The translations under genes were made by a program, and so were the position numbers. This document shows positions 19,232 through 43,643 of a stretch of 64,000 nt of DNA, piece by piece (the first letter of the stretch is position 1; every line of letters begins with the position of its first letter). The stretch is from Fimbriiglobus ruber (GTDB lineage Bacteria > Planctomycetota > Planctomycetia > Gemmatales > Gemmataceae), in NCBI RefSeq assembly GCF_002197845.1, contig NZ_NIDE01000004.1:124001-188000 (forward strand). The letters are read 5' to 3'. The notes under the pieces are model-generated. The model searched no databases and had not been told where the DNA came from. It saw nothing but the letters and a program-made list of their open reading frames with translations.

Positions 19232-19990
19232 TTAAGCGCGGAATGCCCGGCGGTATTCGCCCGGGGATAAGCCGGTGTACGCGCGGAACTGCCGGCTCAG
19301 GGCTGCTTGATCGTAGAACCCGCAGCGTGCGGCCAATTCCCCGAGCGGCTCATCCCCGCCGCGCAGGGCGAGCGCCGCGGCTTCAACGCGGGCCTTGGTT
19401 AACAGCTGCCGCGGCGTGAGCCCGGTCATCTCGCTCACGCGGCGCTGAAACTGGCTGTTCGACAGGCCGGCTTTCTTCGCCAGGACGCCGATCCGCAGCG
19501 GGGCGGCGTAGTCGCGGTGGAGCGTGTCGAGGGCTGCGGCAAGCGGGTCCAGGCTGCCGCCCTGGGCGGCCGGGGTGCCGAGGTCGCGGGAGATGCCGGC
19601 CAGCGCGACGATTCGGCCGCCGGCGTCCCGCACGGGAAGTTTCTGAGAGACGAACCAACCGATCCCGCCGTCCTGTCGCGTGACCATCTCCAGGCGGTCG
19701 TGTACGGCCGTGCCCTCGGACAGCACCTGGTCGTCCTGCTGTTCGTACCCGGCGGCGAGGGCGGCGGGGAACACCTCGCGGGCCGTCCGGCCGAGCAGTT
19801 CGGCGCGGGTCCGCCGTCCGGCCGCCCGGACGAACGCGGTGTTCGCAGCGACGTACCGGCGGTCGCGATCCTTGACGCAAAACAGCGCGTCCGGGAGGGA
19901 ATCGAACAGCGTCTCGGCCGCGGCTAACCCCGGTGCGGCGTGGAACACTTCTTCCCGCCAGAGGGCGGGCACGGGTCGCGTTTTGGGCAT
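19232..19990 (-). CDS. AraC-family regulator with N-terminal PAS domain
   Basis: A 252-aa transcription factor. A PAS fold (about 24-140) begins LFDSLPDALFCVKDRDRRYV and ends with the GGRIVALAGISRDL strand. The AraC HTH (about 155-252) contains IGVLAKKAGLSNSQFQRRVS, ARCGFYDQAALSRQFRAYTG and LSPGEYRRAF. It reads away from putA with about 100 bases between the two starts, the classical layout of a local activator or repressor. The PAS domain probably senses a small ligand or redox state; proline is an attractive but unproven effector. No separate sensor gene is nearby. Confidence 0.9.
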   Translation of the reverse strand: MPKTRPVPALWREEVFHAAPGLAAAETLFDSLPDALFCVKDRDRRYVAANTAFVRAAGRRTRAELLGRTAREVFPAALAAGYEQQDDQVLSEGTAVHDRLEMVTRQDGGIGWFVSQKLPVRDAGGRIVALAGISRDLGTPAAQGGSLDPLAAALDTLHRDYAAPLRIGVLAKKAGLSNSQFQRRVSEMTGLTPRQLLTKARVEAAALALRGGDEPLGELAARCGFYDQAALSRQFRAYTGLSPGEYRRAFRA

Positions 19991-20093
19991 ACCCGGACGT
20001 TACCACAACCGGCACCGATTTTGTATTTTTTCCGCACGCCCGGGACGGAAAACCGCCACGACGGACGGGTCGGCCGCCGGGTACGATACAGAC

Positions 20094-23000
20094 ATGATTA
20101 CCACCATCCCTACACCCGTTACCCCGTCCGCGCCGGCTGCCCCACCCCCACCGTTGGAGCAGGCCGTTGTTCGCCGGGCGGAACATCTCCTCGAACGCGC
20201 CCTGGCCGACCAAACGGCGGCGGAGCGGAAGGAAAGCGGCCGGCTCGCCCGCCTCATGGAGGACCCGCCCGGGAAGGCGTTCACGCTGGCGATGGTCGAT
20301 GAGGTTTTCCGCAGCCACGTCCCGGCCGTCCAGGCCCGACGGTTGCGCCACATCCTGGCCGACTACGGCGCGCCACAATACCTGTCACCAATCGACCGCG
20401 GGCTCATGCGGACGGGTGCTCTCGGCAGCGTGGTTGTCCCGTCGGTCGTCATGCCGCTGGTGGAGGGGCGACTCCGGCAGGACAGCGCGCGCGTCATTCT
20501 GGACGCCGAGCCGGGACCACTCGACCACTATCTCCAGCAACGGGAAGCGGACGGCTTCCGCATTAACCTGAATCAACTCGGCGAAAGCGTACTCGGGGAG
20601 GCCGAGGCCGCTCACCGGCTCGAAGTGGTCCTCCACCACCTCGCCAACCCGCGCGTCACGTACATCTCGGTCAAGATTTCGGCGATCTTCAGCCAGATTC
20701 ATTTGCTCGCGTGGGACGAGACGGTGGGCGAGATCAAGGCCCACCTCCGGCAGCTCTACCGGGCGGCTCTCCCGGCGAAGAAGTTCGTGAACCTGGACAT
20801 GGAAGAGTACCGGGATCTGGCCCTGACGTTGGCCGCCTTCCGCGAGGTGTTGGACGAGCCGGAATTCCTCCCGCTGCCCGCTGGCGTGGTTCTCCAGGGC
20901 TACCTCCCAGACTCGTGGGCCGCCCAACAAGAGTTAACCGCGTGGGCTCAGCGCCGCGTCGCCCGCGGCGGGGCGCCCATCAAGGTGCGGCTGGTCAAAG
21001 GGGCGAACCTGGCGATGGAAGCCGTCGAAGCCGAGTTGCACGGGTGGCACCAGGCCCCATACGCGACGAAGGCCGAGACCGACGCGAACTACCGGCGGAT
21101 GGTCGAGTTCGGTTGCCGCCCGGAGAACGCCGCGGCCGTCCGCCTCGGGGTCGCCTCGCACAACCTGTTCGACGTGGCCCTCGCCCTCGAACTCCGCGAG
21201 CGATTCGGGACCACGGATCAAGTTGAGCTGGAAATGCTGGAAGGGATGGCCAACCACCAGGCCCGCGCGGTCCGCGACGCCGCCGGGGGACTGCTCCTTT
21301 ATGCACCGGCCGTCCGCCGCGACGATTTCCTCAGCGCGATGGCGTACCTCGTCCGCCGACTCGACGAGAACACCTCGCCGGAGAACTTCCTGCGAGTCGC
21401 GTTCGGTCTGCGTCCCGGTTCGCCCGCCTGGGAGCAAGAACGCAAGCGTTTCGAAAACGGCTGGCACGGCCGCCTGACGGTGTCCGACGTTTCCCGGCGG
21501 GCGGTGCCGGCGGTCGACCCCGACGCGACCCCCGTCTTCGCCAACCAACCGGACGCGGACTGGACGCAAGCCGCGAGTCGCACCGCCCTGCGCGACGCGA
21601 TCGCAGCCTGGAAGCAAGACCCCCTGCCGCCGGTGCCGGACCTGAATGCCACGCTCGACACGGCCAGAGCCGCGCAGCCCGGCTGGGAAAGTGCAGGCGC
21701 GAAACACCGCGGCGAGATCCTTCGCGCGGCCGCCCGGGTCATGGCCGGGGACCGCTACCGCACCCTCGCCTGCCTCCGGCTCGAAGGAAAGAAAGCCCCC
21801 GCCGAAGCGGACGCCGAAGTCTCCGAGGCGATCGACTTCGCCCGCTACTACGCGGCCACGTTCGTCGTGCCCACGGGGTTACAGGCTCGCGCCCTCGGTA
21901 CGGTGGTCGTCGCCTCGCCGTGGAACTTCCCTTACGCGATCCCGAGCGGCGGCGTGCTGGCCGCGCTCGCGGCCGGGAACAGCGTGGTGTTCAAGCCCGC
22001 TCCCGAGACCGCGGGGATCGCCTGGCTGATCGCCCAGCAACTTTGGCAAGCGGGCGTCCCGCGGGACGTTCTCCAGTTCTTCCCGTGCGCGGACGGCGAG
22101 ATCGGCCGCGCCCTGATGACCGACCCGCGGGTGAATGCCGTGGTCCTCACCGGGTCGTCGGAAACGGCCCGGATGTTCCAGGGCTGGCGGCCGTCGCTCC
22201 GGCTGTACGCGGAGACCAGCGGCAAGAACGCCCTGGTCATCACCGCCCAGGCCGACCGGGAGTTGGCTATCAAGGATCTGGTGAAGTCCGCGTTCGGCCA
22301 CTCGGGCCAGAAGTGTTCCGCCGCCAGTCTCGCGATCGTGCAGGCCGAGGTGTACGACGACCCGGTCTTCCGGCGACAGCTTCAGGACGCGGCCGCCAGC
22401 ATGGTCGTGGCCCCGTCCACCGACCCGCGGGGCGTGGTAACACCGCTCGTACAGGAGCCGCGCGACGCCCTCCGCCGCGCGTTGACCCTGTTGGACGAAG
22501 GGGAAGAATGGCTCCTGCAACCGCGGCAGGTCGGGGCCGACCCGTGCCAGTGGTCGCCCGGTATCCGGCTCGGTGTGAAGCCAGGGTCGTGGTTCCACCA
22601 GACCGAGTGCTTCGGTCCCGTCCTCGGGCTCATGCGGGCGGAATCGCTGGAGGAAGCGGTCGAGTGGCAGAACGGCACCGCCTTCGGCCTGACCGCGGGC
22701 CTGCACTCGCTCGACCCGGCCGAACAAGCGTGGTGGGCCGACCGGGTGCAGGCGGGCAACCTCTACATCAACCGGCCGATCACCGGGGCGATCGTCCAAC
22801 GGCAGCCGTTCGGTGGCTGGAAGAAGTCGTGCGTCGGTCCGGGGGCGAAAGCCGGGGGGCCGAATTACGTTCTGTCGTTCATCCGGTTGGAAGACGCCGG
22901 CGAAGTCTCTTGGGCCGACGTGGAGACGAGTTACCGGGCGGCCTGGCGCGACCACTTTGCCGTCGACCACGACCCATCAGGTTTGCGGTGCGAAGAAAAC

Positions 23001-23378
23001 GTGTTCCGCTACCGCGTGAGCCGCGGCGTCATCCTGCGAGTGCCGACGGCCAACGAGTCAGTTATCAAACGAGCCGAACTGGCGGCCGAGATTACCGGCG
23101 TGCCGCTTGTCGTTAGCATCGCGACCGAAGAGCCCGACGAAGCATTCGCGGCTCGACTTCCGGAACTCGCAAAGCACGCGGAGTTCGTCCGCTCGGTGGG
23201 ACCACTCCCGGACGTGGTATTACGGGCGGTCCATACAAGCGGCCTGAACTGGATCGAAGCGCCGGTCACGGCGAGCGGCCGAGCCGAGCTGCGGTACTGG
23301 TTGCGCGAACAGGCCGTGTCGCGGACGAAACACCGCTACGGCCAGATCCCCGAGTGGCTGCCGCCGTCCCGCCGGTAG
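20094..23378 (+). CDS. putA: Bifunctional proline dehydrogenase / glutamate-semialdehyde dehydrogenase
   Basis: A 1094-aa enzyme that oxidises proline to glutamate: FAD-dependent proline dehydrogenase to pyrroline-5-carboxylate, then NAD-dependent oxidation. The proline dehydrogenase barrel covers about 60-430 (VSVKISAIF-type strand, VRLVKGANLAMEAVEAE, ASHNLFDVALALEL). The aldehyde dehydrogenase covers about 480-930: SPWNFPYAIPSGG, AAGNSVVFKPAPET, LTGSSETARMF, catalytic Glu707 in AETSGKN and nucleophile Cys741 in GHSGQKCSAAS. It has no N-terminal ribbon-helix-helix DNA-binding domain, unlike the autoregulating E. coli protein; regulation probably comes from the divergent AraC/PAS gene. The frame is open upstream to 19680 but the ATG at 20094 starts the homologous part. 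Confidence 0.96.
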   Translation: MITTIPTPVTPSAPAAPPPPLEQAVVRRAEHLLERALADQTAAERKESGRLARLMEDPPGKAFTLAMVDEVFRSHVPAVQARRLRHILADYGAPQYLSPIDRGLMRTGALGSVVVPSVVMPLVEGRLRQDSARVILDAEPGPLDHYLQQREADGFRINLNQLGESVLGEAEAAHRLEVVLHHLANPRVTYISVKISAIFSQIHLLAWDETVGEIKAHLRQLYRAALPAKKFVNLDMEEYRDLALTLAAFREVLDEPEFLPLPAGVVLQGYLPDSWAAQQELTAWAQRRVARGGAPIKVRLVKGANLAMEAVEAELHGWHQAPYATKAETDANYRRMVEFGCRPENAAAVRLGVASHNLFDVALALELRERFGTTDQVELEMLEGMANHQARAVRDAAGGLLLYAPAVRRDDFLSAMAYLVRRLDENTSPENFLRVAFGLRPGSPAWEQERKRFENGWHGRLTVSDVSRRAVPAVDPDATPVFANQPDADWTQAASRTALRDAIAAWKQDPLPPVPDLNATLDTARAAQPGWESAGAKHRGEILRAAARVMAGDRYRTLACLRLEGKKAPAEADAEVSEAIDFARYYAATFVVPTGLQARALGTVVVASPWNFPYAIPSGGVLAALAAGNSVVFKPAPETAGIAWLIAQQLWQAGVPRDVLQFFPCADGEIGRALMTDPRVNAVVLTGSSETARMFQGWRPSLRLYAETSGKNALVITAQADRELAIKDLVKSAFGHSGQKCSAASLAIVQAEVYDDPVFRRQLQDAAASMVVAPSTDPRGVVTPLVQEPRDALRRALTLLDEGEEWLLQPRQVGADPCQWSPGIRLGVKPGSWFHQTECFGPVLGLMRAESLEEAVEWQNGTAFGLTAGLHSLDPAEQAWWADRVQAGNLYINRPITGAIVQRQPFGGWKKSCVGPGAKAGGPNYVLSFIRLEDAGEVSWADVETSYRAAWRDHFAVDHDPSGLRCEENVFRYRVSRGVILRVPTANESVIKRAELAAEITGVPLVVSIATEEPDEAFAARLPELAKHAEFVRSVGPLPDVVLRAVHTSGLNWIEAPVTASGRAELRYWLREQAVSRTKHRYGQIPEWLPPSRR

Positions 23379-23399: not shown

Positions 23400-23712
23400 C
23401 CGGTGTCCCCGGGCTCCCGCCCTCGTTGTACCCCACAAGTCTGCAACGTCTTTCGTAACAAGATGTTGCGGAAACGGCATTCGGAAGGCCCAAATCCGCT
23501 TCGCCGTTTGGAAAACGCTTGTTTTCCAGGCCATTCGGAAGGGGCATTTTCGCTGTTTCCGACTTATGGGGTACAACGAGGGCTCCCGCCCGGGTCTACG
23601 TTCGGCCGCCCCAGAGGGGCGGAAAACCCAGCCTTTCTCTGCGACACTTTCTACCCGACCACGTCGTTTTCCGCCCCTCTGGGGCGGCCGAACGTAGAAC
23701 CGGGCGGGAGCC
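23400..23712. repeat. Nested repeat: 163-bp MITE inside a larger hairpin element (copy 1)
   Basis: The inner element (23420-23582) has 16-bp terminal inverted repeats CCCTCGTTGTACCCCA. It is flanked by direct copies of GGGCTCCCGCCC (23411-23422 and 23580-23591), as for a target-site duplication. The outer element is a 45-bp hairpin pair (23583-23627 with 23666-23710, one mismatch) whose left arm is interrupted by the insertion. A second copy of the same length and arrangement is at 32059-32390. Short open frames here are not genes. It also separates putA from the convergent gene at 23744. Confidence 0.85.
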
Positions 23713-23743
23713 CGGGGACACCGGGGGCGAACCCGAACCCCCA

Positions 23744-24634
23744 TCACTTCTTCGTCCTCGGCACCACAATTGAGTCGGTCCAGTAGGACTTTTCCGGTTC
23801 CAGAAACAGATCGGCCATCGGGGCGGTGAACACTTCCTTGCCGTCGTATTCCAGGTGCAACGGCGCGTCGGCCAACCGTCCGACGGCGAACTGCCAGACG
23901 GGTTTTGACCCCTCCTTGGCGCGGGCCTCCACGAAAAGCATCAACTCCGGATTCGTCCCATTCGCCAGTGTGAACAACCCGCCGGCCAGTAAGCCCCGGG
24001 CTTCGTCCCGGTAGGTATGCAGCGGGCGCTCCAGTCGCCGCAATTCGTATCGCGTGTTGTTCGGGTTCCAGAACTCGTGTCCGGTGAATTTCCGGGCCAA
24101 GAGTTTCACCTGCTGTTGCTGCTGGGCCGCCTCCGCTGCCACTGTCGGTGCGTTCGGGATAGGCCGCAATTCAACGCCTGAATTGTTCTCCTGCCACCAG
24201 GGGGCTCCCGCCCGACTCGCCCGCAACTTCCCGCCGGATGTGTTGCAGATCCCGACCTTCCACGTCCTTCGATCGTTCACCTTCTGGTACAACTCGAGCA
24301 GGGTGACGGGCCGCCCCTGTTCGCCCCAGCCCCAAACGCTGCCCCGATCGTCTTCCCGCGTTAAATCGCCGTACAAGAGCAGTGGTTGTTCGATCCGCTT
24401 GACCCGGGCCCACTTCCCGTCGGTCAAGACCTCGACTTCGATACCCTCGACAAATTTTGTAGCCGCCTGAAGGTATTCCTTGGCAGCGTCCGATATCGGC
24501 TCCTCTTTCCGCGCCTTGTCGCCAACGGGTGGGGGTTCCGGGGGAGCGGCCGACAAGACGCCGGACGTGAACGTCACGGCGGCAACCGCGAAGGCCGTAC
24601 CGATGGCCGGTCGAATGCGTGGTGGCGACATCAT
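23744..24634 (-). CDS. Secreted protein of an uncharacterised planctomycete paralogue family (member 1)
   Basis: A 296-aa protein with a signal peptide (about 1-30, cleavage near LSAAPP). No known domain is recognised. The C-terminal half shares a core with five other proteins in this window: an A-x-FTG motif (LLARKFTGHEF), WELR/YELRRLERPLHTY, a D/A-G-L/G-LFTL segment, GTNPELMLFVEAR and W-x-FAVGRL. This member is the most divergent and has a polyGln stretch (QQQQQ) near residue 170. It reads away from the 24.8-kb operon, and the shared intergenic region carries the AGACAGAATGTCT dyad. Role unknown; probably periplasmic or surface. Confidence 0.75.
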   Translation of the reverse strand: MMSPPRIRPAIGTAFAVAAVTFTSGVLSAAPPEPPPVGDKARKEEPISDAAKEYLQAATKFVEGIEVEVLTDGKWARVKRIEQPLLLYGDLTREDDRGSVWGWGEQGRPVTLLELYQKVNDRRTWKVGICNTSGGKLRASRAGAPWWQENNSGVELRPIPNAPTVAAEAAQQQQQVKLLARKFTGHEFWNPNNTRYELRRLERPLHTYRDEARGLLAGGLFTLANGTNPELMLFVEARAKEGSKPVWQFAVGRLADAPLHLEYDGKEVFTAPMADLFLEPEKSYWTDSIVVPRTKK

Positions 24635-24756
24635 GGACCTCCGTTTTGGGGCGGGCGACCATTTGCTCTTTGGCCCGCGGGCTCATCGTCGGACCCGCGA
24701 TTTCCGGCGTTCAGCCGGTACGAAACGAGAAGTTTTGAAATTTTAGCAAATGTCTC

Positions 24757-24786
24757 TTGCGGAAAAAGACAGAATGTCTGTAGTAT
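24757..24786 (+). promoter_or_regulatory. Promoter with BlaI-type dyad operator for the 24.8-kb operon
   Basis: -35 TTGCGG (24757-24762), an 18-nt spacer and -10 TAGTAT (24781-24786). The spacer contains the perfect dyad AGACAGAATGTCT at 24767-24779, four bases after the -35. A third half-site TGTCT lies at 24751-24755. The promoter before blaI (40344-40373) has the same geometry and a matching dyad, so a BlaI-family repressor is a good candidate. This is inference from two sites. Confidence 0.55.
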
Positions 24787-24856
24787 GTGGCGGAAGTCGG
24801 CGATCATGTCTTTGCACCGGGCGGCGGTCGGACCCCAGCAAGGCGGAGGGCGTCAC

Positions 24857-26323
24857 GTGCTGTCATTGGCGATCCTCAGTATCGGGTTGTCGGCGGGGCC
24901 GGCCGAGAGCCCCACGGAACTGGCCGCCTGGCTCGACGCCCGGCTGGAAACGGCGTGGCGCGCGAAAGGCGAGCCGCCCCGAGCCGTGGTCTCGGACGAG
25001 ATCTTTCTCCGCCGCGCGTTCCTCGAACTCACGGGCACCATCCCGAGTGTGGCCGAGGCCCGCGACTTCCTCGAAGACCCGAGCGCGACGAAACGACAAC
25101 GGTTGATCCAGACGCTTCTGGAAGACAAGCGGTACGCGGAACACTTCGGCCGCCTGTGGGCCCGCACGATGGCGCCGGCCGGCACCACCCGCGGGCCGCT
25201 CGAAGCCTGGCTGCGGACCGAGTTCCGCAAGAACACGCCCTTCGACCAGACGACCAAGGCCGTTCTCACGGCCAAGGGGGATTCCACGACGGCCGGCCCC
25301 GCGGCGTTTTATTTCGCCGTGGGTAACACGCCCGAGCGGATCACCGAGGCGGTGGCGCGGGGCTTCCTGGGCATCCGCCTCGGCTGTGCCCAGTGCCACA
25401 ACCACCCGTTCACCGGCTGGAAACAGGAAGATTTCTGGGGTCTGGCGGCGTTCTTCGCCAGCACGGGCAACATGGCCGGCCCGGTGACCGACGGGCCGGC
25501 GCGGAAAGTCAGCCCGATGAACAGTAGCAAGGAATTCGACGCCAAGTTCCTCATCGGACCGGCGCCGGAATTCCGCGGCAGCCGATCCGCCCGGGCCGTG
25601 CTGGCTGACTGGCTCGCGACCCCGGAGAACCCGTACTTCGCCGCGAACGTCGTCAACCGCGTATGGCAAGATCTGTGTGGCGCCGGTCTGGTTTCGTCCG
25701 TCGATGACCTGGATACAGTAGAAGCCGCCGAGCGCGGGCAGGTACTCGACGGGCTAACCGCGAAGTTCGTCGCGAGCGGGTTCGACATGCGCTGGCTGAT
25801 CGAGGGGATCTGCCTTAGTAAGGCTTATCAGCTGGCTAGTTCTGGGAGCGAAAGTAGTCCCGGTCGGCGGCCGGTGCGGACCCTCACGCCGGATCAGGTC
25901 TTCGCCTCACTCGATCAGTCATTGGGGCTCAAGAAGGGCCGTGGGGTCGGCATTCGATTTACGCCCGAGGGGCGGTCGCTCATGGTCCGGCTCGAAGAAG
26001 CCCGAGGCTCGACGCCCACAGACTACAAGGGCGGCATTCCCCAGGCGCTCCTCCTGTTGAATGGTAACCTACTGACCGAGGCGACGGCCCTCGACTCCTC
26101 CCTGACCCTCCGGGCGATCGTCGAGGCACCCTTCTTAAATGAGACCGAAAAGCTGGAAACGCTCTACCTGGCGGCGTACAGTCGACAGCCACGGCAGGAA
26201 GAGCGTGAGCGGATGCTCAAAGTTATTGGGGCGAAGCCCGCCGATCCGGCGGCCCGCCGACAGGCGTACTCGAACATCTTTTGGGCCTTGATGAATAGCC
26301 CGGAATTCGTCCTCTGTCCGTGA
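24857..26323 (+). CDS. Exported DUF1549-DUF1553 protein (short form)
   Basis: A 488-aa planctomycete protein with a signal peptide (MLSLAILSIGLSAGPAES if GTG at 24857 is used), then DUF1549 (about 15-190: FLRRAFLELTGTIPSVAEAR, ERITEAVARGFLGIRLGCAQ, CHNHPF) and DUF1553 (about 250-485: NPYFAANVVNRVWQDLCGAG, LTPDQVFASLDQSLG, LLLLNGNLLTEATALD). It lacks the N-terminal cytochrome module of its relative at 5724. I prefer the GTG with GGAGGG seven bases upstream because the proposed -10 ends at 24786; in-frame ATGs at 24785 and 24806 are alternatives. It is the first gene of a long operon and is followed directly by its usual DUF1501 partner. Confidence 0.88.
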   Translation: MLSLAILSIGLSAGPAESPTELAAWLDARLETAWRAKGEPPRAVVSDEIFLRRAFLELTGTIPSVAEARDFLEDPSATKRQRLIQTLLEDKRYAEHFGRLWARTMAPAGTTRGPLEAWLRTEFRKNTPFDQTTKAVLTAKGDSTTAGPAAFYFAVGNTPERITEAVARGFLGIRLGCAQCHNHPFTGWKQEDFWGLAAFFASTGNMAGPVTDGPARKVSPMNSSKEFDAKFLIGPAPEFRGSRSARAVLADWLATPENPYFAANVVNRVWQDLCGAGLVSSVDDLDTVEAAERGQVLDGLTAKFVASGFDMRWLIEGICLSKAYQLASSGSESSPGRRPVRTLTPDQVFASLDQSLGLKKGRGVGIRFTPEGRSLMVRLEEARGSTPTDYKGGIPQALLLLNGNLLTEATALDSSLTLRAIVEAPFLNETEKLETLYLAAYSRQPRQEERERMLKVIGAKPADPAARRQAYSNIFWALMNSPEFVLCP

Positions 26324-26337
26324 GCGGGAGAAGTCAC

Positions 26338-27624
26338 ATGTTGACGCGTGATTTCGGCCGGCGGGATTTCCTGCGGATGAGTCTCGCCAGCGCGGCCGGG
26401 GCCGCGGCCTGCCCGTGGCTGCCGGCGCTCGCGGCCGCGGCCGGGAAGAAGCCCGCCAAGGCGTGCATCGTCCTCTGGATGTCCGGCGGCCCGAGCCAGA
26501 CGGACACCTGGGATCTCAAGCCGGACCACAAAAACGGCGGGCCGACCAAGGAGATCGCGACGGCCGCATCCGGGGTGCGGTTCAGCGAGTACCTTCCCCA
26601 ACTCGCCGCGGCCGCCAAGGATCTCGGCATCGTCCGCAGCATGACGACGAAAGAAGGCGAACACGGCCGCGCCACGCAACTGCTCCACACCGGTCAACTC
26701 CCCACCGACGCTGTGGCGTACCCGGCCCTCGGCTCGCTGCTCGCCAAGGAACTTGGCGACCCGGACCACGACCTACCGAGCTACGTCACGATTTCGCCCG
26801 GCGGTCTGAATAACGTCGGTGCCGGATTCCTCGGCCCGCAGTTCGCTCCGCTGGCCGTCTCGGGGATCAGCGACGACCCGAATGCCCGGGCGAATCTGAG
26901 CATCGACAACTTGAAGCCGGACCGGGCGGTGGGTAACGACGACCAGGACATTCGCCGCAAGCTGCTCGAAGGCTTGCAAACTGACTTCGGCAAGCGTTAC
27001 GGCGGGGCGGCGGCCGCGGCACACGCGGCCAGCTACCGGAAAGCCCAGCGGATGGTCGACACCGAAGCCCGCGGTGCCTTCCGGCTGGACGAGGAGCCCG
27101 CCAAGCTCCGCGAGGCTTACGGCCGCAGTCGCTTCGGCCAGGGCTGTTTGCTCGCCCGCCGGCTGCTGGAACGCGGGGTGTCCTTCGTCGAGGTAACGCT
27201 CGACGGGTGGGACACGCACACGAACAACTTCGAAGCCGTCAAGGGGCTGAACGGGACGCTCGACCCGGCATTCGCGACGCTGCTATCCGACCTGAAAACC
27301 CGCGGGATGCTCGCGAACACGCTGGTTGTGTGGATGGGCGAGTTCGGCCGGACGCCCATCATCAACCGCACGACCGGCCGCGACCACTTCCCGGTCGCCT
27401 GGTCGACCGTGTTAGCCGGGGCGGGGATCAAGGGCGGTCGGGCGGTCGGGAGCACCGGGAAGGACGGGATGGCTGTGACGGACCGGCCGGTCACCGTCAC
27501 CGACTTCCTCGCCACCGTTTGCACCGCCGTGGGCGTCGACCCCGAGAAAGAGAACCACACCTGGGACGGTCGGCCGATCTCGCTCGTCAAGGGCGGCAAG
27601 CCGATCGAGGAGCTGGTCGGATGA
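26338..27624 (+). CDS. DUF1501 family exported protein
   Basis: A 428-aa protein with a Tat signal (FGRRDFLRMSLASAAGAAA) and the family landmarks CIVLWMSGGPSQTDTWDLKP, GCLLARRLLERGVSFVEV, DGWDTHTNNF, WMGEFGRTPIINRTTGRDHF and a C-terminal DFLATVCTAVGVDP. It begins 14 bases after the DUF1553 stop with a GGGAGAAG site; an in-frame GTG at 26320 overlaps that stop. It probably works with the upstream protein at the cell surface, but the reaction is not known. Confidence 0.93.
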   Translation: MLTRDFGRRDFLRMSLASAAGAAACPWLPALAAAAGKKPAKACIVLWMSGGPSQTDTWDLKPDHKNGGPTKEIATAASGVRFSEYLPQLAAAAKDLGIVRSMTTKEGEHGRATQLLHTGQLPTDAVAYPALGSLLAKELGDPDHDLPSYVTISPGGLNNVGAGFLGPQFAPLAVSGISDDPNARANLSIDNLKPDRAVGNDDQDIRRKLLEGLQTDFGKRYGGAAAAAHAASYRKAQRMVDTEARGAFRLDEEPAKLREAYGRSRFGQGCLLARRLLERGVSFVEVTLDGWDTHTNNFEAVKGLNGTLDPAFATLLSDLKTRGMLANTLVVWMGEFGRTPIINRTTGRDHFPVAWSTVLAGAGIKGGRAVGSTGKDGMAVTDRPVTVTDFLATVCTAVGVDPEKENHTWDGRPISLVKGGKPIEELVG

Positions 27625-29237
27625 TCGGCACCGCGCGAGTCCTGGGGTTGCTCGCCGCGGCGACCGCGCTCGCCCTGGTGGGGGTGGCGGTCGGGCGCGA
27701 GGGGGGGACCGCGCCGCCCCCACCACCCGCAGTCGACCCGGAGAGCGCCCGCGACGTATTTTTGCTGCTCGACCGCGGGCCACTGCACCTTCGGCTACAC
27801 GTCACGATTGGCGGCAAGTCGCCCCAGGCCGTCCGCCGGGAGTACCTGGCCCGGTTGTTCAAGTCGCTCGACCTGGACCACGACGGCAAGCTGAGCCGGG
27901 CCGAGTTCGACCGGTCGCCGTTGAACACGGCGGCGCGCGGGGCGATCGGACGCCGATCGAATAAGGAGGCGGCCGAAGAGGTGCCCGCGGCCAAGCTCGC
28001 CGAGGCCCTTGAACGCGTAGCAGGCGAAACCCTCGCTTTCCGACAGGACGATTCGGCCCGCAAGACAGACGACCTGGTTTTCGCCGCGCTAGACGCCGAC
28101 CACAACGGCACTTTGAGCGAGGATGAAATCGCACAAGCGACCGCCCTGCTCCTGCTCAAGGATCAGGACGAAGACGACTGCGTGACCCTCGACGAGTTCA
28201 AGCCGGTCGAAACGGTGGCGGTGGCGCAGGTCGTTTTCCCGGGAGCCCGCGAACGGCCGCTCGCCGCGGTTAGCACTCTCATGCTGGACGGCGCCGGTGC
28301 TCTCTTCGCCCAACGGCTGATTCGCCGGTACGACCGCAACCGCGACGGCCGGCTGTCCGCCGAAGAGATCGGCTTCGCCCCTGAACGGTTCCGCGCCCTC
28401 GACACCGACGGGGACGGGAAGCTCTCGCCGGACGAACTCGCGGCCTTCCGAAAGCAAAAGCCGGACGTGGAGGCGGCCCTGGACTTGGAGCCGTCGGCCG
28501 GAGACGCGTCCCAGATCCGGGTGGCCGACGGGCAAAACGCCCAGACGATCCGCCCGGACCTCGTGGCCTTCTCGTCCGCCGATGGCGTCCTCGAACTGGC
28601 GGTCCGCCGGTACGACCCGATCGCCTCAGCGGTGGCCGACGCCCGACTACAGTTCAACCGCCTGGACGCCGACGAGAACAGTTACCTCGACCGCGACGAG
28701 CTGAAGGACAACGCCCGGTTCCAGCGTGGGCTGTTCGAGATCATCGACGCCGACGGCGACGACAAGATCTTCTGGCCGGAAATGGAGCGGTACGTCCGCA
28801 ACCGGGCGGACGCGGCCGCGACCCGCTGCGATATCGTCCTGCACGACCTGGGCCACGGGTTCTTCGAGGCGCTCGACCGGAACCACGACGGCCGGCTCGG
28901 CCTCCGCGAGATCCGGGCCGCGTCCGCGACGCTGCGGACCTTGCGGAAGCCCGGCGACGCGCTCCTCCGCGCGACCGACCCGCCGCGCCGCCTCCACCTC
29001 GAAGTGGTCCGCGGGAGCTTTCAACTGTTCAGTAACCCGGTCGGCCCGATGCTGGTGTCCCAGCCGGTCGTGCAGGTGCGAACGCCGGTCGGCCCGGTCT
29101 GGTTCCAGCGGATGGACCGGAACAACGACGGCGACCTGACCTGGAAAGAATTCCTCGGCCCACGGCACGTGTTCGAAATGCTCGACGCCGACCACGACGG
29201 CTTGATCGATGCCAAAGAAGCCGAGAAGGCTCGCTGA
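27621..29237 (+). CDS. Secreted multi-EF-hand protein
   Basis: A 538-aa protein whose ATG overlaps the stop of the DUF1501 gene (ATGA). A signal peptide or anchor (about 1-25) precedes a Pro-rich stretch. About ten EF-hand-type calcium loops follow, among them DLDHDGKLSRAEF, DADHNGTLSEDEI, DRNRDGRLSAEEI, DTDGDGKLSPDEL, DADENSYLDRDEL, DADGDDKIFWPEM, DRNHDGRLGLREI, DRNNDGDLTWKEF and DADHDGLIDAKEA. A few are degenerate (DQDEDDCVTLDEF). The protein is probably an extracytoplasmic calcium-binding scaffold. Its position in the operon makes a calcium-dependent partner of the DUF1553/DUF1501 proteins plausible. Confidence 0.88.
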   Translation: MIGTARVLGLLAAATALALVGVAVGREGGTAPPPPPAVDPESARDVFLLLDRGPLHLRLHVTIGGKSPQAVRREYLARLFKSLDLDHDGKLSRAEFDRSPLNTAARGAIGRRSNKEAAEEVPAAKLAEALERVAGETLAFRQDDSARKTDDLVFAALDADHNGTLSEDEIAQATALLLLKDQDEDDCVTLDEFKPVETVAVAQVVFPGARERPLAAVSTLMLDGAGALFAQRLIRRYDRNRDGRLSAEEIGFAPERFRALDTDGDGKLSPDELAAFRKQKPDVEAALDLEPSAGDASQIRVADGQNAQTIRPDLVAFSSADGVLELAVRRYDPIASAVADARLQFNRLDADENSYLDRDELKDNARFQRGLFEIIDADGDDKIFWPEMERYVRNRADAAATRCDIVLHDLGHGFFEALDRNHDGRLGLREIRAASATLRTLRKPGDALLRATDPPRRLHLEVVRGSFQLFSNPVGPMLVSQPVVQVRTPVGPVWFQRMDRNNDGDLTWKEFLGPRHVFEMLDADHDGLIDAKEAEKAR

Positions 29238-29253
29238 TTAAAGGACGCCACCT

Positions 29254-30297
29254 ATGCCAGTTGCCGAACCCCGGCCCGGGGCCGCCGCCGAAGCGAACGG
29301 CCGCCCGATTCACGACGACGCTACCGCCGTCCGCCGCCTGGGCGAAGCCCGTGAGCGGATCAAGGAGGAAGTCGGCCGGGTGATCGTCGGCCAGAGCGAG
29401 ATCGTCGACCTGCTCCTCGTCGGCCTGCTCTGCCGGGGCCACGTCCTGTTGCACGGGGTTCCGGGCCTGGGCAAAACGCTGATGGCCAAGACCCTGGCGG
29501 ACTCGCTGGCGATGGAGTTCCGCCGGGTTCAGTTCACCCCGGACCTGATGCCGTCCGACATCACCGGCACGGACATCGTCAAGGAAGACCCGGCGTCCGG
29601 CCGGCACACGCTCGAATTCCTGCCAGGCCCGGTGTTCACGAACTTCCTCCTCGCGGACGAGATCAACCGGACTCCGCCGAAGACCCAGGCGGCCCTGCTC
29701 CAGGCGATGCAGGAGGGCGACGTCACGGTCGGCCGCCAGACGTACCCGCTGCCGAAGCCGTTCTTCGTCGTGGCGACCCAGAACCCGATCGACATGGAAG
29801 GCACCTACCCACTACCGGAAGCCCAGGTCGACCGGTTCATGTTCAGCCTCCGCATCGCCTACCCGTCGATCGAGGAGGAGGTCCGGATCATCAAGGGGAC
29901 GACCGGCACCGCGATCGCGAAGGCGTCGGCCGCCCTGACCGCCGACGAGGTCATCCGGTTGCAAGAGTACGTCCGCGGCGTGCCGATCGCGGACAGCGTG
30001 GTGAACTACGCGGCCCGCCTCGTGGCCGCGACCCGGCCCGGTTGCGGCGGCCCGGCCAACTTACACAAGTACATCGCCTACGGGGCGAGCCCGCGGGCGT
30101 CGCAGTGTCTGGTCCTGGGGGCGAAGGCCCGGGCGATCCTCGCCGGCCAGTTCCACGTCGACTTCGCGGACCTGAAGGCGCTGGCCGCGCCGGTCCTGCG
30201 GCACCGGCTGGTCCTCAACTTCCACGCCCGGGCCGACAAGATCGACGCCGACCAACTGGTCACCCAACTTCTCGCCAGCGTCCCCCAGGACGTGTAA
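29254..30297 (+). CDS. MoxR-family AAA+ ATPase
   Basis: A 347-aa cytoplasmic AAA+ chaperone. The Walker A motif is GVPGLGKT at 68-75 and Walker B is LLADEINR. The MoxR-specific stretches are QFTPDLMPSDITGTDI, FTNFLLADEINRTPPKTQAA, and ATQNPIDMEGTYPLPEAQVD, ending with RHRLVLNF. MoxR proteins act on VWA-domain partners during maturation of surface or metal-containing complexes. That fits the DUF58 and VWA genes that follow. It starts 16 bases after the EF-hand gene. Confidence 0.95.
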   Translation: MPVAEPRPGAAAEANGRPIHDDATAVRRLGEARERIKEEVGRVIVGQSEIVDLLLVGLLCRGHVLLHGVPGLGKTLMAKTLADSLAMEFRRVQFTPDLMPSDITGTDIVKEDPASGRHTLEFLPGPVFTNFLLADEINRTPPKTQAALLQAMQEGDVTVGRQTYPLPKPFFVVATQNPIDMEGTYPLPEAQVDRFMFSLRIAYPSIEEEVRIIKGTTGTAIAKASAALTADEVIRLQEYVRGVPIADSVVNYAARLVAATRPGCGGPANLHKYIAYGASPRASQCLVLGAKARAILAGQFHVDFADLKALAAPVLRHRLVLNFHARADKIDADQLVTQLLASVPQDV

Positions 30298-30313
30298 CCA
30301 CCGGGAGGCGACC

Positions 30314-31132
30314 ATGTGGGCCACTCGCGCCGCGGCGGTGTTCGTTCTCGGAGTGGCGATCGCCTTTGGGGGCGACCGCGCCCCGGACGAAGCCGCCGAG
30401 GCGGACCGGGCGTGCGCCGCGGAACTGGCCCGCTGGCAGCTCAGTTCGGCCGACTCCCTCCTCGACCGTCCGGCGGCCCCGGCGCAGAAGTGGACGAATC
30501 CTTCGGCCGGCCGCGTCTACGGCCACACTTACGTCTGGCTCGACCGGGGGCGGCCCGCAGCGGTCGGGTGTCTGTACCGGTACTTCGATCCCTACCAGTC
30601 TCTCAACGGCGAACTGGTCGCCCTGACGGGGTCACAACTCGTCGCGAAAAAGGACGACAAGGTGATTTGGGAGCCGCAAACGAAATGGGAATGGCACCCC
30701 TTACCGGGGGCCGCCACGCCCGCGGCCGGCGGCCCGCAGCGGCTCATCCAGATGCGGGCGATCGCCGACGAATGCAAAGTCGAACTGCTGGACAAGCGGA
30801 ACACGATCAAGGGAGACAGTCAGACGCCGCGGCTGTTGACCACGCCGATCTACCGGTATGACTTCGCGAAATCGAAGCCACTCGACGGCGCCCTGTTCGC
30901 CTACGTGATCGGCACCGACCCGGAACTCTTGCTCCTGCTCGAATGCGACACCTCGGCCGCCGCCCCGGAATGGCGGTTCGGGGTCGGCCGACTGAACCGC
31001 GACCACGTCAAGTTACGCCGGAAGGGCGGAACCGCGTGGGAAGGGCCCGCGATCGTGGGCGGGTACGAGAACGAGCCCACCGAGGCGTACCACTTCTTTC
31101 CGCTCGCCCTGCGCGAGGGCGCGAAGAAATGA
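30314..31132 (+). CDS. Secreted protein of the uncharacterised paralogue family (member 2)
   Basis: A 272-aa protein with a signal peptide (MWATRAAAVFVLGVAIAFGG). It shares the family pattern with the tandem genes at 42737-46361: WTNPSAGRVYGHTYVWLDRG then RPAAVGCLYRY, LIQMRAIADE, TTPIYRYDF, LDGALFAYVIGTDPELLLLLE, and WRFGVGRL. It lacks the EFTG motif seen in the others. It sits between moxR and the DUF58 gene, and its stop overlaps the DUF58 start (ATGA), so it belongs to the operon and probably to the same process. No function is known. Confidence 0.78.
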   Translation: MWATRAAAVFVLGVAIAFGGDRAPDEAAEADRACAAELARWQLSSADSLLDRPAAPAQKWTNPSAGRVYGHTYVWLDRGRPAAVGCLYRYFDPYQSLNGELVALTGSQLVAKKDDKVIWEPQTKWEWHPLPGAATPAAGGPQRLIQMRAIADECKVELLDKRNTIKGDSQTPRLLTTPIYRYDFAKSKPLDGALFAYVIGTDPELLLLLECDTSAAAPEWRFGVGRLNRDHVKLRRKGGTAWEGPAIVGGYENEPTEAYHFFPLALREGAKK

Positions 31133-32019
31133 GTGCCACGCCCGACCTCTCGGACCCCGCGTACTTCGCACAGCTCGACAGCATCGAGTTGCGCGTGCGG
31201 TCGATCGTCGAGGGCTTCCTCCACGGCCTGCACCGGAGCCCGCACGTCGGGTTCAGCGTCGAGTTCGCGTCGCACCACGAGTATGTGCGCGGGGACGACC
31301 CGCGGCACATCAACTGGAAACTTTACGCCCGGCAGCACCGGTTGTACGTCAAGGAGTTCGACGGCGACACCAACCTGAACCTGTATATCCTGCTCGACGT
31401 GAGTTCCTCAATGGCGTGCGCGAGCCTGGGCCTGAGTAAGCTGCACTACGCGGCGGCGCTGGCCGGGTCGCTCGCGCACCTCGCGCTACGACAGCACGAC
31501 GCGGCCGGGATCATCCTCTTCGCGGCCGAAGTTCTCGCCAGCTTGCCGCCGCGGTCGAAGACGCACCAGTTGCAGGAGATCCTCGGGCTGATCGCGAACG
31601 CCACCCCGCGGGCCGAGACGGACGCCGGGCGAGCGATCCACCAGGCGGCCTCCATGTGCCGGCAGCGCGGCATGGTGGCCGTGATCTCGGACTGCTTCGA
31701 TGACGTACCCCGGCTCCTGGACGGACTCGACCACCTGTTGTTCCTGAACCACGAGGTGGTGCTGTTCCAAATCCTCGACCCGTGGGAGCGCGACCTGCCG
31801 CTCGAAGGCAACGTCCGCTTCCGCGACCTCGAAACGGGCGAAACGTTGACGACGATCAGCGAGGGCGTCCGTGCCGGTTACCAGGCCGCGGTCCGTGAGT
31901 GGCTGACGGAACTCGACGGCGCGTGCCTCTCGCGGGGGATCGACCGCGTCGAGCTGACGACCGACGAGCCACTCGACCGTGCGCTGCTGAGCTACTTCAT
32001 GCGGCGGTCGCGACATTAG
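31129..32019 (+). CDS. DUF58 family protein with VWA-like fold
   Basis: A 296-aa protein that starts inside the preceding stop (ATGA). It contains the DUF58 signature GDDPRHINWKLYARQHRLYV followed by a VWA-like core with the MIDAS-type DVSSSMA motif (about residue 92), LALRQHDAAGIILFA, and VAVISDCFDD. DUF58 proteins nearly always accompany moxR, as here, and are believed to be targets of the ATPase. It has no membrane helix. The next operon gene is separated by a 478-base repeat-filled gap. Confidence 0.94.
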   Translation: MSATPDLSDPAYFAQLDSIELRVRSIVEGFLHGLHRSPHVGFSVEFASHHEYVRGDDPRHINWKLYARQHRLYVKEFDGDTNLNLYILLDVSSSMACASLGLSKLHYAAALAGSLAHLALRQHDAAGIILFAAEVLASLPPRSKTHQLQEILGLIANATPRAETDAGRAIHQAASMCRQRGMVAVISDCFDDVPRLLDGLDHLLFLNHEVVLFQILDPWERDLPLEGNVRFRDLETGETLTTISEGVRAGYQAAVREWLTELDGACLSRGIDRVELTTDEPLDRALLSYFMRRSRH

Positions 32020-32058
32020 AGCGACGAGCCGGCGTTCTCGGGCATGGGTAGAAGGCTC

Positions 32059-32373
32059 GGGCAGGTGTCCCCGGGCTCCCGCCCTCGTTGTACCCCATAA
32101 GTCGGAAGCAGCGAAAATGCCCCTTCCGAATGGCCTGGAAAACAAGCGTTTTCCAAACGGCGAAGCGGATTTGGGCCTTCCGAATGCCGTTTCCGCAACA
32201 TCTTGTTACGAAAGACGTTGCAGACTTGTGGGGTACAACGAGGGCTCCCGCCCGGGTCTACGTTAGGCCGCCCCGGAGGGGCGGAAAACGGGTTCAGCAT
32301 ACGCGTGATTGTCACGAACAGGTTCTTGGTTTTTAGCCCCTCCGGGGCGACCTAACGTAGACCCGGGCGGGAG
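32059..32373. repeat. Nested repeat: 163-bp MITE inside a larger hairpin element (copy 2)
   Basis: The inner element (32082-32244) is the reverse complement of the one at 23420-23582 with about one or two changes, has the same length and the same CCCTCGTTGTACCCCA termini, and is flanked by GGGCTCCCGCCC at 32073-32084 and 32242-32253. The outer hairpin arms are 32245-32289 and 32329-32373 (42 of 45 bases pair). The loop of the outer hairpin is unrelated to that of copy 1. It lies between the DUF58 and BatA-like genes of one operon. Confidence 0.85.
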
Positions 32374-32473
32374 CCCGGGGACACCGGGGGTGGGCCTCAC
32401 GCCACACCCGGGGACACCGAGGGCGGACCTCCTGCCCGTGCCCGGGGACACCGGGGGCGGACCTCACGCCCAT
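32374..32473. repeat. Three tandem repeats of about 33 bp
   Basis: Three units begin at 32374, 32407 and 32441, each opening CCCGGGGACACCG and continuing GGGCGGACCTC-like. A partial unit occurs after the repeat at 23711. They directly precede the BatA-like gene and extend the outer arm of the nested repeat. Confidence 0.75.
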
Positions 32474-32497
32474 CCCGAAACAGCGTGCAGGACGGGC

Positions 32498-34459
32498 ATG
32501 GAATTCGTTCACGCATCCCTGTTGGCGGGTCTGGCGGCGGTGGCCCTGCCGGTCATCGTCCACCTGTTCTTCCGCCGCCGGGCCCGGCCGGTGGACCTGG
32601 GGACGCTGCGGTTCCTGAAAATCGCCGTCCGCAATGACACCCGCCGGCGGGCGATCAAGCGGTGGATACTCCTGCTCCTGCGGATCGCGTGCGTCGTCCT
32701 TTTGGTGTTCATGTTCGCGCGGCCTTACCGGGCGGAATTCGCCGGCGGCGGGTCCACCGGGCTCACCGTCCTGTTGATCGACCGGTCGGCGAGCATGGGC
32801 CGTCAGCGGGACGGCACCCGGTTGGTCGATCACGCACTGCGGGAGTTGCCGTCGATCCTCGCCCGGATTCCGGCGAATTCGCGGGTCGAGGCCGCATGGT
32901 TTGACACCCGCGTCGAGCCGATGGGGGCGTCCGAAGACGACGGCCGGGGGACACTGTCGCGGGCGGAAGCACCCGCGACCCTCATCGGTGGGACCGACTT
33001 CGCCACCGCCCTGACGTGGGCCGGTGCCCGGTGCAACGCCGCCCGGGGAAGCGGCCCACTCAGCGTCCACGTCGTCACCGACCTCCAACGATCTGGCTTC
33101 GGGAGCCTGGAAGAGTTCGCGTTCCCGAAAGACGTGCCGGTCCGTGTCTGGGACGTCGGCGTGCCGACGTCGGCCAACGTCGCGGTCACCGAGGTCCGCC
33201 CGGTCAGTCTCATGGTCCCCGCGGACCGGCCGACCACGGTGCAGGCCAGCGTACTCAACGCGCGGCCGACGCCGCTCGATCACCTGTCGGTTCGCCTGAA
33301 GCTTGCCAACGGCGGCAAAGTCGTGGACGTCCCGGCCGTCGCGGCCGCGTCCCCGGGGGCCACGGCGACTGTGAGCTTTGAAACGCCGCCGCTCTCGCCG
33401 GGGCTCTGGCAGGGAACGGTATCCTTTGCCGCGGAGGACGACCTGCCTCTCGACAACGCCCGGCACGTGGCAATTTACGCGGCCGCCAAGCCCCGCGTCT
33501 TGCTCCTGGACGGGGCCGCCAGGGACGTCGCGGCGCTGGGCGAGGGGTACTTCCTGGAGGCGGCCCTGCGACTGGCTCCGCCGGGTGACGCCGCCGCGGA
33601 CGGGCCGTTCCAGGTCGCGATTTTGCCGTACACCAGTGGCGCCCGGCTGCCCGACTTGAGCCAGGTCGACGTGCTGGTCGCGGCCGACGTGGCCGGCTTC
33701 CCTGCGGCAGACGCGGCCAAGATCCGGGAGTTTTTGAAACGGGGCGGCGGGGCCGTCGTCCTCGGTGGGAACAACCTTGGGCCGGCGAGTACCGCCCAGT
33801 ACGCCGTCGCGGACTTGTCGGTCGGCGAGGTGGCGGGCACGCACGCGGCGCGAGACCAGCCGTTCCGGGTTTCCGAGTTCGCGGCCGACGATCCCGTGTT
33901 GGCGCCGTTCGCCGACCCGCAGCACGGCGACCTCCGCCGGTTGACGTTCTCCGGGTGTACGCGGGTCGTACCGGCCGCCGGGGTTCGCGTGCTCGCGCGG
34001 TTAAAGGACGGGACGCCGCTCCTACTCGAACGGCCGGCGGGTTCGAAACGGGTGCTGTGGTGGGCCGCGGCGGCCGGCCGTGAACACGGCGAATGGAGCC
34101 GCAGCCGGCTGTTCTTGCCGCTGGTTCATCAGCTCGTTCGCGGGGCCGCCGGGGTCGTCGGGGCCGGCCCCGTTCGCGACCTGCCCGCTGCCGGCGAGGT
34201 GCCCGGCGTCAAGCAAGTCGGCGACGCCTGGGAAGTTCGCAACCTCGAACCCCAGGAATCGGACCTCGACCGCTGCACGGCCGAGGAGTTCGCCAGCCGC
34301 CTCGGGGTGACGCCGGCCACGGACTCGGACAGCTTGGTGGCGGAAGAAAACAAACCCGGCGACGAGTCGCGGACCGGCGAATGGTGGCCGTGGCTCTGGT
34401 TGGCATTGGTCGTGTGTTGGGTCCTCGAAGGCTTACTTGCGAACCGGACGATCGCGTAA
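32498..34459 (+). CDS. BatA-like membrane protein with VWA domain
   Basis: A 653-aa protein. The N-terminus is the BatA/aerotolerance-type double membrane segment (residues 4-24 and about 57-75) with FFRRRARPVDLGTLRFLK between. A VWA domain follows with the MIDAS motif LIDRSASMGRQRDG near residue 90 and FATALTWAGARCNAARG. The region 380-560 resembles a glutamine-amidotransferase-like fold (LVAADVAGFPAADAAKIREF, GGGAVVLGGNNLG). The C-terminus has a final membrane helix (WPWLWLALVVCWVLEGLLA). It should expose its VWA domain outside the membrane and be a partner of MoxR. The ATG at 32498 is chosen as the start of the first membrane segment. Confidence 0.92.
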   Translation: MEFVHASLLAGLAAVALPVIVHLFFRRRARPVDLGTLRFLKIAVRNDTRRRAIKRWILLLLRIACVVLLVFMFARPYRAEFAGGGSTGLTVLLIDRSASMGRQRDGTRLVDHALRELPSILARIPANSRVEAAWFDTRVEPMGASEDDGRGTLSRAEAPATLIGGTDFATALTWAGARCNAARGSGPLSVHVVTDLQRSGFGSLEEFAFPKDVPVRVWDVGVPTSANVAVTEVRPVSLMVPADRPTTVQASVLNARPTPLDHLSVRLKLANGGKVVDVPAVAAASPGATATVSFETPPLSPGLWQGTVSFAAEDDLPLDNARHVAIYAAAKPRVLLLDGAARDVAALGEGYFLEAALRLAPPGDAAADGPFQVAILPYTSGARLPDLSQVDVLVAADVAGFPAADAAKIREFLKRGGGAVVLGGNNLGPASTAQYAVADLSVGEVAGTHAARDQPFRVSEFAADDPVLAPFADPQHGDLRRLTFSGCTRVVPAAGVRVLARLKDGTPLLLERPAGSKRVLWWAAAAGREHGEWSRSRLFLPLVHQLVRGAAGVVGAGPVRDLPAAGEVPGVKQVGDAWEVRNLEPQESDLDRCTAEEFASRLGVTPATDSDSLVAEENKPGDESRTGEWWPWLWLALVVCWVLEGLLANRTIA

Positions 34460-34471
34460 GGGAGAATCTCC

Positions 34472-37921: not shown

Positions 37922-37933
37922 CCCGGGGACACC

Positions 37934-40333: not shown

Positions 40334-40343
40334 CGGACAGCTA

Positions 40344-40373
40344 TTGACAGTTCAGACATTTCGTCTTTATAAT
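40344..40373 (+). promoter_or_regulatory. Consensus promoter of blaI with dyad operator in the spacer
   Basis: A full-consensus sigma70 promoter: TTGACA (40344-40349), 18-nt spacer, TATAAT (40368-40373). The spacer carries the dyad AGACATTTCGTCT at 40354-40366. A repressor bound there would block polymerase, as BlaI/MecI does in known systems by binding ACA/TGT half-sites over its own promoter. The same dyad at the same offset occurs at 24767-24779. Confidence 0.75.
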
Positions 40374-40405
40374 GGTGATAAAGATTCCGTAGGGAGCGAC
40401 ACGCA

Positions 40406-40807
40406 ATGGGCCGGGCGGCACGAGAAATCACGGACGCGGAAATGGCGATCCTCACCGAGTTGTGGCAACGGCCCTCGGCGACCGTCCGCGAACTCACCGA
40501 AGCCCTCTACGGCAACACCCCAGCCGCGTTGCTGGCCACCGTTCAAAAACTGCTCGACCGGCTGGAAGCGAAGAACTGCGTCGCCCGCGACCGGGACCGG
40601 TGGCCCCACCACTACACCGCGGCCGTGAAGCGGGACGAACTCGTCGGCAACCGCCTCCAGGCCGCCGCGGACCAGCTCACCGACGGCGACCTGGCTCCCC
40701 TCCTCACCCACCTCGTCCGCTCGCAGAAACTCACGGCCAAGGACCGCGAACAGCTGCGCAAAGTCCTCGACGAACTCGACGGGAAGGCCTCCGGTAAGAC
40801 GAAGTGA
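40406..40807 (+). CDS. blaI: BlaI/MecI/CopY-family repressor
   Basis: A 133-aa winged-helix repressor. The DNA-binding part (about 1-80) shows ITDAEMAILTELWQRPSATV, LLATVQKLLDRLEAKNCVAR and DRWPHHYTAAV, typical of the family. The C-terminal part (about 85-130: LVRSQKLTAKDREQLRKVLD) is the dimerisation and cleavage region. In the known systems the repressor is inactivated by proteolysis after a signal from an M56 membrane peptidase; that peptidase is the next gene, 18 bases downstream. Its strong promoter carries a probable autoregulatory operator. The downstream targets are probably not beta-lactamases, because none is present. Confidence 0.93.
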   Translation: MGRAAREITDAEMAILTELWQRPSATVRELTEALYGNTPAALLATVQKLLDRLEAKNCVARDRDRWPHHYTAAVKRDELVGNRLQAAADQLTDGDLAPLLTHLVRSQKLTAKDREQLRKVLDELDGKASGKTK

Positions 40808-40825
40808 GCGGCGCAAGGGTGGACC

Positions 40826-42670: not shown

Positions 42671-42736
42671 GTCGTGGGTTCGACGTCGTAAGGCTCCCCG
42701 TCGACCGCACGACACTCTTCCCGTGAAGGACCGACT

Positions 42737-43618: not shown

Positions 43619-43643
43619 CAGGCTTCGGCACCGGAGGTCGGTC

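Follow-up and report, generated by a model that had tools for sequence, protein, structure and literature searches.

The BlaI repressor and the BlaR1 protease are a textbook system of antibiotic-resistance control. The stretch analysed here (64,000 nucleotides (nt) of the planctomycete Fimbriiglobus ruber, contig NZ_NIDE01000004.1, positions 124,001 to 188,000 of the forward strand; hereinafter the window, with positions counted from its first letter) contains a BlaI-type gene at 40406, an M56 protease gene next to it and, upstream, an operon headed by a PSCyt/PSD1 gene. The promoters of blaI and of the operon have similar dyads between their -35 and -10 elements. This raises the question of whether the BlaI protein encoded at 40406 controls the operon in addition to its own promoter. 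This BlaI repressor very probably switches the gene cluster, because relatives keep the dyad at the same place. The dyad would be the operator of the BlaI from 40406, governing its own promoter, the operon and some genes of a secreted-protein family termed A1, with BlaR1-like release; judged from sequence, we estimate the probability of this reading at about 0.8.

Geometry and conservation of the operon dyad

The operon promoter (24757-24786, + strand) consists of the -35 element TTGCGG (24757-24762), the putative BlaI operator AGACAGAATGTCT (24767-24779) and the -10 element TAGTAT (24781-24786). The original prediction placed this dyad four bases past the -35 element within an 18-nt spacer, which is confirmed to the base; the spacer is divided as 4+13+1, with four nucleotides before the dyad and one between the dyad and the -10 element. 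The blaI promoter (40344-40373, + strand), with TTGACA at 40344-40349, the putative operator AGACATTTCGTCT at 40354-40366 and TATAAT at 40368-40373, has the same 4+13+1 arrangement and contains AGAC-N5-GTCT, as had been stated; only dyad position 9 differs from the earlier description, being C and not T. The dyad form common to both window promoters is AGACA-N3-(T/C)GTCT. When positions 24500-43000 were scanned for the sigma-70 consensus, the sole match was the blaI promoter (12 of 12 letters; 0.8 matches expected from shuffles). The operon promoter is weaker, and its -35 element matches TTGACA in three of six letters by hand count.

A search with the first protein of the operon, in which 16 candidates were scored per genome, revealed six close relatives in five other genomes, 67-75% identical, the next best match being 44% identical. 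The dyad lies between the -35 and -10 elements in all seven operon promoters compared, that of the window and those of the six orthologs, and all seven read TTGNNN-N4-AG(A/T)CA-N3-TGTCT-N-TA. Five of them have AGTCA in one half, and the last base of the -10 element is not T in the G017 and G009 promoters (G, C and L numbers are our handles for genomes, contigs and loci). In an unanchored alignment of 215 columns, the sites align without gaps; from 10 bases before the dyad to 3 after it, 15 of 26 columns are invariant, compared with 13 of 189 elsewhere. These 26 columns run from the -35 element to just past the dyad, and the TA of the -10 element is among the invariant ones. An anchored stack of the seven promoters gives a similar profile, yet its bits at the TTG and dyad columns are partly built in, because the anchor pattern itself demands these letters. 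None of 140,000 shuffles of the seven upstream pieces matched the core pattern. The extra TGTCT half-site that had been noted just upstream of the -35 element is present at 24751-24755; it is absent at the aligned place in all six orthologous promoters and was rejected as a conserved element.

The position of the dyad within a promoter can also be used for searching. The original prediction proposed a genome search for the dyad between -35 and -10 elements; with the exact geometry TTG-N7-dyad-N-TANNNT, such a search found three matches in the genome of the window, namely both window promoters and C8:5423, against none for the control. In 95 genomes of the family, including this one, there are six matches and again no control matches, and two of the six are the G088 blaI and operon promoters, as judged by adjoining sequence and genes. 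The pattern AGWCA-N3-TGTCT with exact geometry gave eight matches in six genomes compared with no control matches: five operon promoters and three promoters of A1 genes (C8, C14 and G009). The pattern was derived from these same operon promoters, so the new information is the absence of matches elsewhere. When the own genome was searched with a looser pattern, four matches (operon, C8, C14 and C17 blaI) and no control matches were obtained.

Distribution of the dyad among BlaI and A1 genes

The window blaI gene (40406-40807, + strand) encodes a protein of 133 amino acids with a Penicillinase_R domain (PF03965; 80.1 bits, cut-off 22.6); its sequence matches those of BlaI and MecI structures, while the NCBIfam CopY and BlaI models remain below their cut-offs. 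At the sequence level, it also has the dyad in its own promoter, as do repressors of the BlaI/MecI/CopY type. Five BlaI-family genes were found in the genome, and the dyad is located upstream of two of them (window and C17:821444) and not of the other three. In the family genomes, 40 BlaI matches were obtained at E <=1e-20, 39 of them readable; G034:C652, at a contig end, was dropped. They were compared with eight weaker BlaI-family matches, three of which are the own-genome paralogs; the remaining weaker rows were left out. A dyad matching at 9 or 10 of 10 letters was sought in the 180 base pairs (bp) upstream of each match, whose start does not always coincide with the start codon. It was present for 35 of the 39 clade-level BlaI and for 0 of the 8 weaker matches (Fisher p 1.6e-6); among 4700 shuffles, 17 had it. 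Several of the weaker matches have a related core, for example, CTACA..TGTCG.

Four clade-level genes lack the dyad. In G027:C213, 8 of 10 dyad letters are present where expected, whereas the tree places G075:C289 outside the clade; the other two, in G007 and G009, are orthologs of the window BlaI located behind the VWA gene. The G007 protein, from the same genus, is 77% identical to that of the window. In the BlaI phylogeny (midpoint root, some rows long), all 35 dyad-bearing proteins belong to one group of 38 rows with support of 97/94, and the nine rows outside it are all without the dyad. In the 25 BlaI promoters whose -35 and -10 elements match strictly, there are four nucleotides before the dyad in 23 and five in 2, and after the dyad there are none in 23 and one in 2. 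The clade blaI promoters L131, L140, L142, L150 and L152 of other genomes contain a pair of dyads at a distance of 24-35 bp, an arrangement also known from Clostridium thermocellum. The BlaI paralog C17:169960 (L025) has, by eye, a different candidate operator, CTAC-N4-GTAG, just past TTGACA.

The promoter pattern was examined at 39 loci. This set excludes L016 and L017, the overlapping L048 and any listed place that had no separate locus (e.g., G304:C266); L047 and L051 form one double site. A BlaI gene of the window clade's type is located at the site in 22 loci, 15 within the family, overlapping with the clade BlaI set, and 7 outside it; these seven are among ten loci examined outside the family. 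Five loci lead an A1 gene or the operon, one has an A1 gene ending at the site, and 11 have neither BlaI, an A1 gene nor the operon. Sites G017:C301, G054, G059:C29, G061:C127 and G265 are without an assigned target gene. The weak dyads in G035, G036, G037 and G094 (C4, C12) lead no BlaI or A1 gene, look like chance and were rejected. Pairs of dyads 33 bp apart were noted in the own genome (C2:361607/361640 and C11:23268/23301) and in G017:C301 (L162:2559/2592), with no target gene assigned.

The A1 family comprises proteins of about 270-300 residues with signal-like starts by eye, six of them in the window. It has 23 matches in the genome, some partial and one with an inner stop. A dyad with 9 or 10 of 10 letters is located within 500 bp upstream of seven of them, one being the operon dyad, and five further matches lie within the two window units. 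The full promoter was found at the A1 genes C8 and C14:1209436; the evidence is weaker for the remaining four, of which C17:1565378 has a perfect dyad that is not followed by TANNNT and three have a TCAAGACT-type element without promoter geometry. This common element, near TCAAGACT-N-GTCTTGATTT or TCAAGACT..GTCTTGA, is located 155-435 bp upstream of C2:364069, C14:759659 and C4:691750. The divergent gene 23744-24634 (- strand), which had been suggested as a further target, encodes an A1-family protein, and its control by BlaI is therefore plausible; it was rejected as a demonstrated target, no -35/-10 pair framing the dyad on the minus strand by eye.

Sequence and comparison thus establish the putative operator and where it lies, show that it is conserved and coupled to one BlaI clade, and reveal other promoters built alike.

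Which repressor would use the site

The simplest objection is that the dyad is a chance palindrome in a promoter. Taken alone, AGAC-N5-GTCT is about as frequent as its control: 72 exact copies were found in the 12.36-Mb genome versus 50 for the reversed pattern, and in the window, allowing at most one mismatch, 12 were seen versus 19.4 expected, that is, fewer. The longer form AGACA-N3-YGTCT gives 26 strand matches at 16 places of the genome (control 12). The original prediction regarded random occurrence across the genome as a point against itself; this describes the bare dyad, which was rejected as evidence because its frequency is near chance in genome and window, whereas the dyad in promoter geometry lies above its control. 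The preservation of the dyad in 7/7 operon promoters and the absence of matches among the shuffles largely refute a chance origin, which retains a negligible probability. It is also very improbable, though less so, that the site is used by some other dyad-binding repressor, the likeness to the blaI promoter reflecting shared ancestry or chance. Similar dyads are bound by other winged-helix repressors, and the loose geometry does have control matches; however, the dyad tracks one BlaI clade (35/39 versus 0/8 for others), in Thermoanaerobaculales, a BlaI with 44% identity carries AGGCAACGTGCCT at the corresponding promoter position, with differing letters and preserved geometry, and a BlaI of C. 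thermocellum has a similar motif by experiment.

The more serious competitor is the paralog C17:821444, 43% identical to the window BlaI, with the same operator (AGACACTTTGTCT) in its own promoter. The operon site could be bound mainly by this paralog, or the two BlaIs could share it; in either case, the window BlaI would not be the main controller. Judging by its operator, the paralog may share targets in the window genome, and in G017 and G092, which have the operon promoter, the clade BlaIs detected belong to the other type; the loss of a window-type blaI from view is possible there, since the operon contigs are only 8.3 and 6.9 kb long. However, the dyad is followed by one nucleotide in window-type promoters and by none in the C17 type, and the window-type blaI shares a cluster or gene set with the operon in the window as well as in G088 and G009. 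The G009 genome (one contig, 98% complete) also argues against the paralog: the sole clade BlaI there is orthologous to the window BlaI, and the site is kept in the operon promoter as AGTCATTTTGTCT, the AGTCA form. Therefore, the window-type BlaI would suffice in G009. Control mainly by the paralog, or by both proteins, is considered unlikely. The original prediction that the BlaI encoded at 40406 controls the operon is thus supported by comparison: by the seven operon promoters, by the association with one BlaI clade and by the single clade BlaI of G009.

Several observations weigh against control by the window BlaI and deserve mention beside the near-chance frequency of the bare dyad and the operator shared by the paralog. 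With looser spacing, the family genomes gave 30 matches compared with 16 for the control in raw counts, 11 of these 16 being in genus g36, and in a class sample of 297 genomes 33 matches were listed versus 8 for the control, also raw and not empty. The blaI genes of G007 and G009 have no upstream dyad. In addition, 11 of the 23 A1 matches have neither a dyad nor a place in the two window units, and a 475-bp repeat inside the operon could break the transcript. Finally, at the operon there is a single full dyad plus a half-site that is not conserved, and the targets are others than those that the available part of a study of C. thermocellum BlaI_0696 describes (PMC8457756); there, two repeat pairs per target looked required, and a three-operon regulon was ascribed to the beta-lactam response.

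Gene cluster, proposed regulation and known systems

All genes of the operon are on the + strand, with intergenic gaps of at most 16 bp except for the repeat. The first, a PSCyt2 (DUF1549)-PSD1 (DUF1553) gene (24857-26323), has a refined start: GTG at 24857 is likely, and the six orthologs have ATG at the aligned place. It is followed by genes for a DUF1501 protein (26320-27624), an EF-hand protein (27621-29237, start ATG 27621 inferred), a MoxR-type AAA ATPase (29254-30297), an A1-family protein (30314-31132) and a DUF58 protein (31129-32019, probable start). After the repeat (32020-32494), there are genes for a BatA-type protein with a VWA-like region (32498-34459, probable start), a DUF4175 protein (34472-37921) and a glutamine-amidotransferase-like protein (PF07090; 37934-40333), the last gene before blaI, whose VWA match is weak and below the cut-off. 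MoxR (PF07726), DUF58 (PF01882) and BatA (PF07584) in one run are characteristic of Bat/MoxR-VWA operons. Unlike in those operons, PSCyt/PSD1, DUF1501 and EF-hand genes are at the head, an A1 gene is inside, and blaI and the M56 gene are behind. A role in periplasmic or oxidative stress has been proposed for the bat genes of Bacteroides and Leptospira, their function being unproven according to the accessible part of PMC3557215.

The repeat is a dispersed element with inverted arms. In ten sequence sources searched, it was found at window positions 32020-32494 and 23408-23727, at L085:7001-7321 and at L128:4767-5125; these copies are located within the operon, close to the divergent gene, between the blaI and M56 genes of C17 and between the PSCyt and DUF1501 genes of C5. 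A fusion of proline dehydrogenase and aldehyde dehydrogenase (19680-23378) adjoins the cluster.

Next to blaI, the M56 metalloprotease of the BlaR1 type (40826-42670, + strand) has the M56 domain (PF05569; 116.4 bits, cut-off 31) with the HEXXH motif HELAH. Its C-terminus contains WD40-like matches (PF00400 over cut-off), and no penicillin-binding sensor was found there by Pfam at E 0.001. The NCBIfam blaR1 model covers only residues 107-329 and is far below its cut-off. The M56 gene is followed on the + strand by four A1-family genes (42737-43618, 43641-44561, 44558-45448 and 45477-46361); the last gene of this run (46363-47283) encodes a protein with the look of a caspase or C13-type peptidase by eye, with no Pfam or NCBIfam match. 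In seven clusters read in other genomes, blaI and M56 run on to a PSCyt gene, and in six of them to DUF1501 as well; C17 of the own genome is alike. A dyad also precedes a PSCyt-DUF1501 pair on C5, 24 bp ahead of the start of the open reading frame. As for the A1 proteins, none of the members scanned had a Pfam or NCBIfam match above cut-off. An AlphaFold model based on the six window sequences (predicted local distance difference test score 75.7, predicted template modeling score 0.78) gave no clear fold match to the PDB: the best Foldseek E was 0.013 with a template modeling score of 0.10, and the best VIA-align Z was 5.2, middling by the tool's own note.

These features suggest the following scheme. 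A BlaI dimer between the -35 and -10 elements would block RNA polymerase at both promoters. The blaI promoter would also serve the M56 gene and the A1 genes in tandem behind it, while the second blocked promoter would be that of the PSCyt/PSD1-DUF1501-EF-hand-MoxR-A1-DUF58-BatA-DUF4175-VWA operon; some A1 promoters at other places of the genome would be targets of BlaI as well. The M56 protein would sense something outside the membrane via its WD40 end, and its zinc protease would cut BlaI and thus turn the genes on, as in BlaR1 systems, possibly in response to envelope stress.

The system resembles BlaI/BlaR1 and MecI/MecR1 of Staphylococcus aureus in that a PF03965 repressor adjoins an M56 protease with HEXXH and in that a dyad operator covers the repressor's own promoter. 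It differs in the WD40-like end of the M56 protein in place of a detectable penicillin-binding domain and in its targets, which are not beta-lactamase or PBP2a. The outer operator letters are GACA/TGTC here and TACA/TGTA in Staphylococcus BlaI/MecI operators. The signal of the cluster is apparently other than penicillin; penicillin sensing is unlikely, as no penicillin-binding domain was found. The orientation of the M56 protein can be suggested by analogy: the WD40 end would face outward because, according to the accessible part of PMC9834060, the C-terminal sensor of S. aureus BlaR1 is outside and the protease inside.

The operator type itself is probably not new, since BlaI_0696 recognises such a motif: as far as the available text of PMC8457756 goes, it binds inverted GTCTAT repeats five nucleotides apart, and if the halves face as ATAGAC-N5-GTCTAT, an orientation we assume, they contain AGAC-N5-GTCT. 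The available part of a Mycobacterium BlaI paper (PMC12565901) gives no motif letters. Among the open-access papers listed by the literature searches, none was, judging by title, about a BlaI regulon with MoxR, DUF1501/1549/1553, M56-WD40 or Gemmata, which is weak evidence because only title listings were covered. What appears new are the targets (MoxR-DUF58-BatA operon and A1 family) and the BlaR1-like protease with a WD40 end, none of which were found in those searches.

A planctomycete BlaI regulon not devoted to beta-lactams can be proposed tentatively, in which the M56 protease would read an envelope signal through a WD40 propeller facing outward and cut BlaI, turning on the MoxR-Bat operon and the A1 family, an expanded set of small secreted proteins. 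This wiring may be old and widespread, since in other planctomycete families the promoter pattern leads an A1 gene (G307) and A1 genes adjoin such a blaI (G295). Thus, a repressor/protease pair of the resistance type, with a sensor that is not penicillin-binding, appears to be wired to a MoxR-Bat envelope operon, to PSCyt/DUF1501 genes and to the secreted A1 family. The putative operator is precise enough for predicting target promoters and would therefore provide a testable handle on these nameless genes and on their signal.
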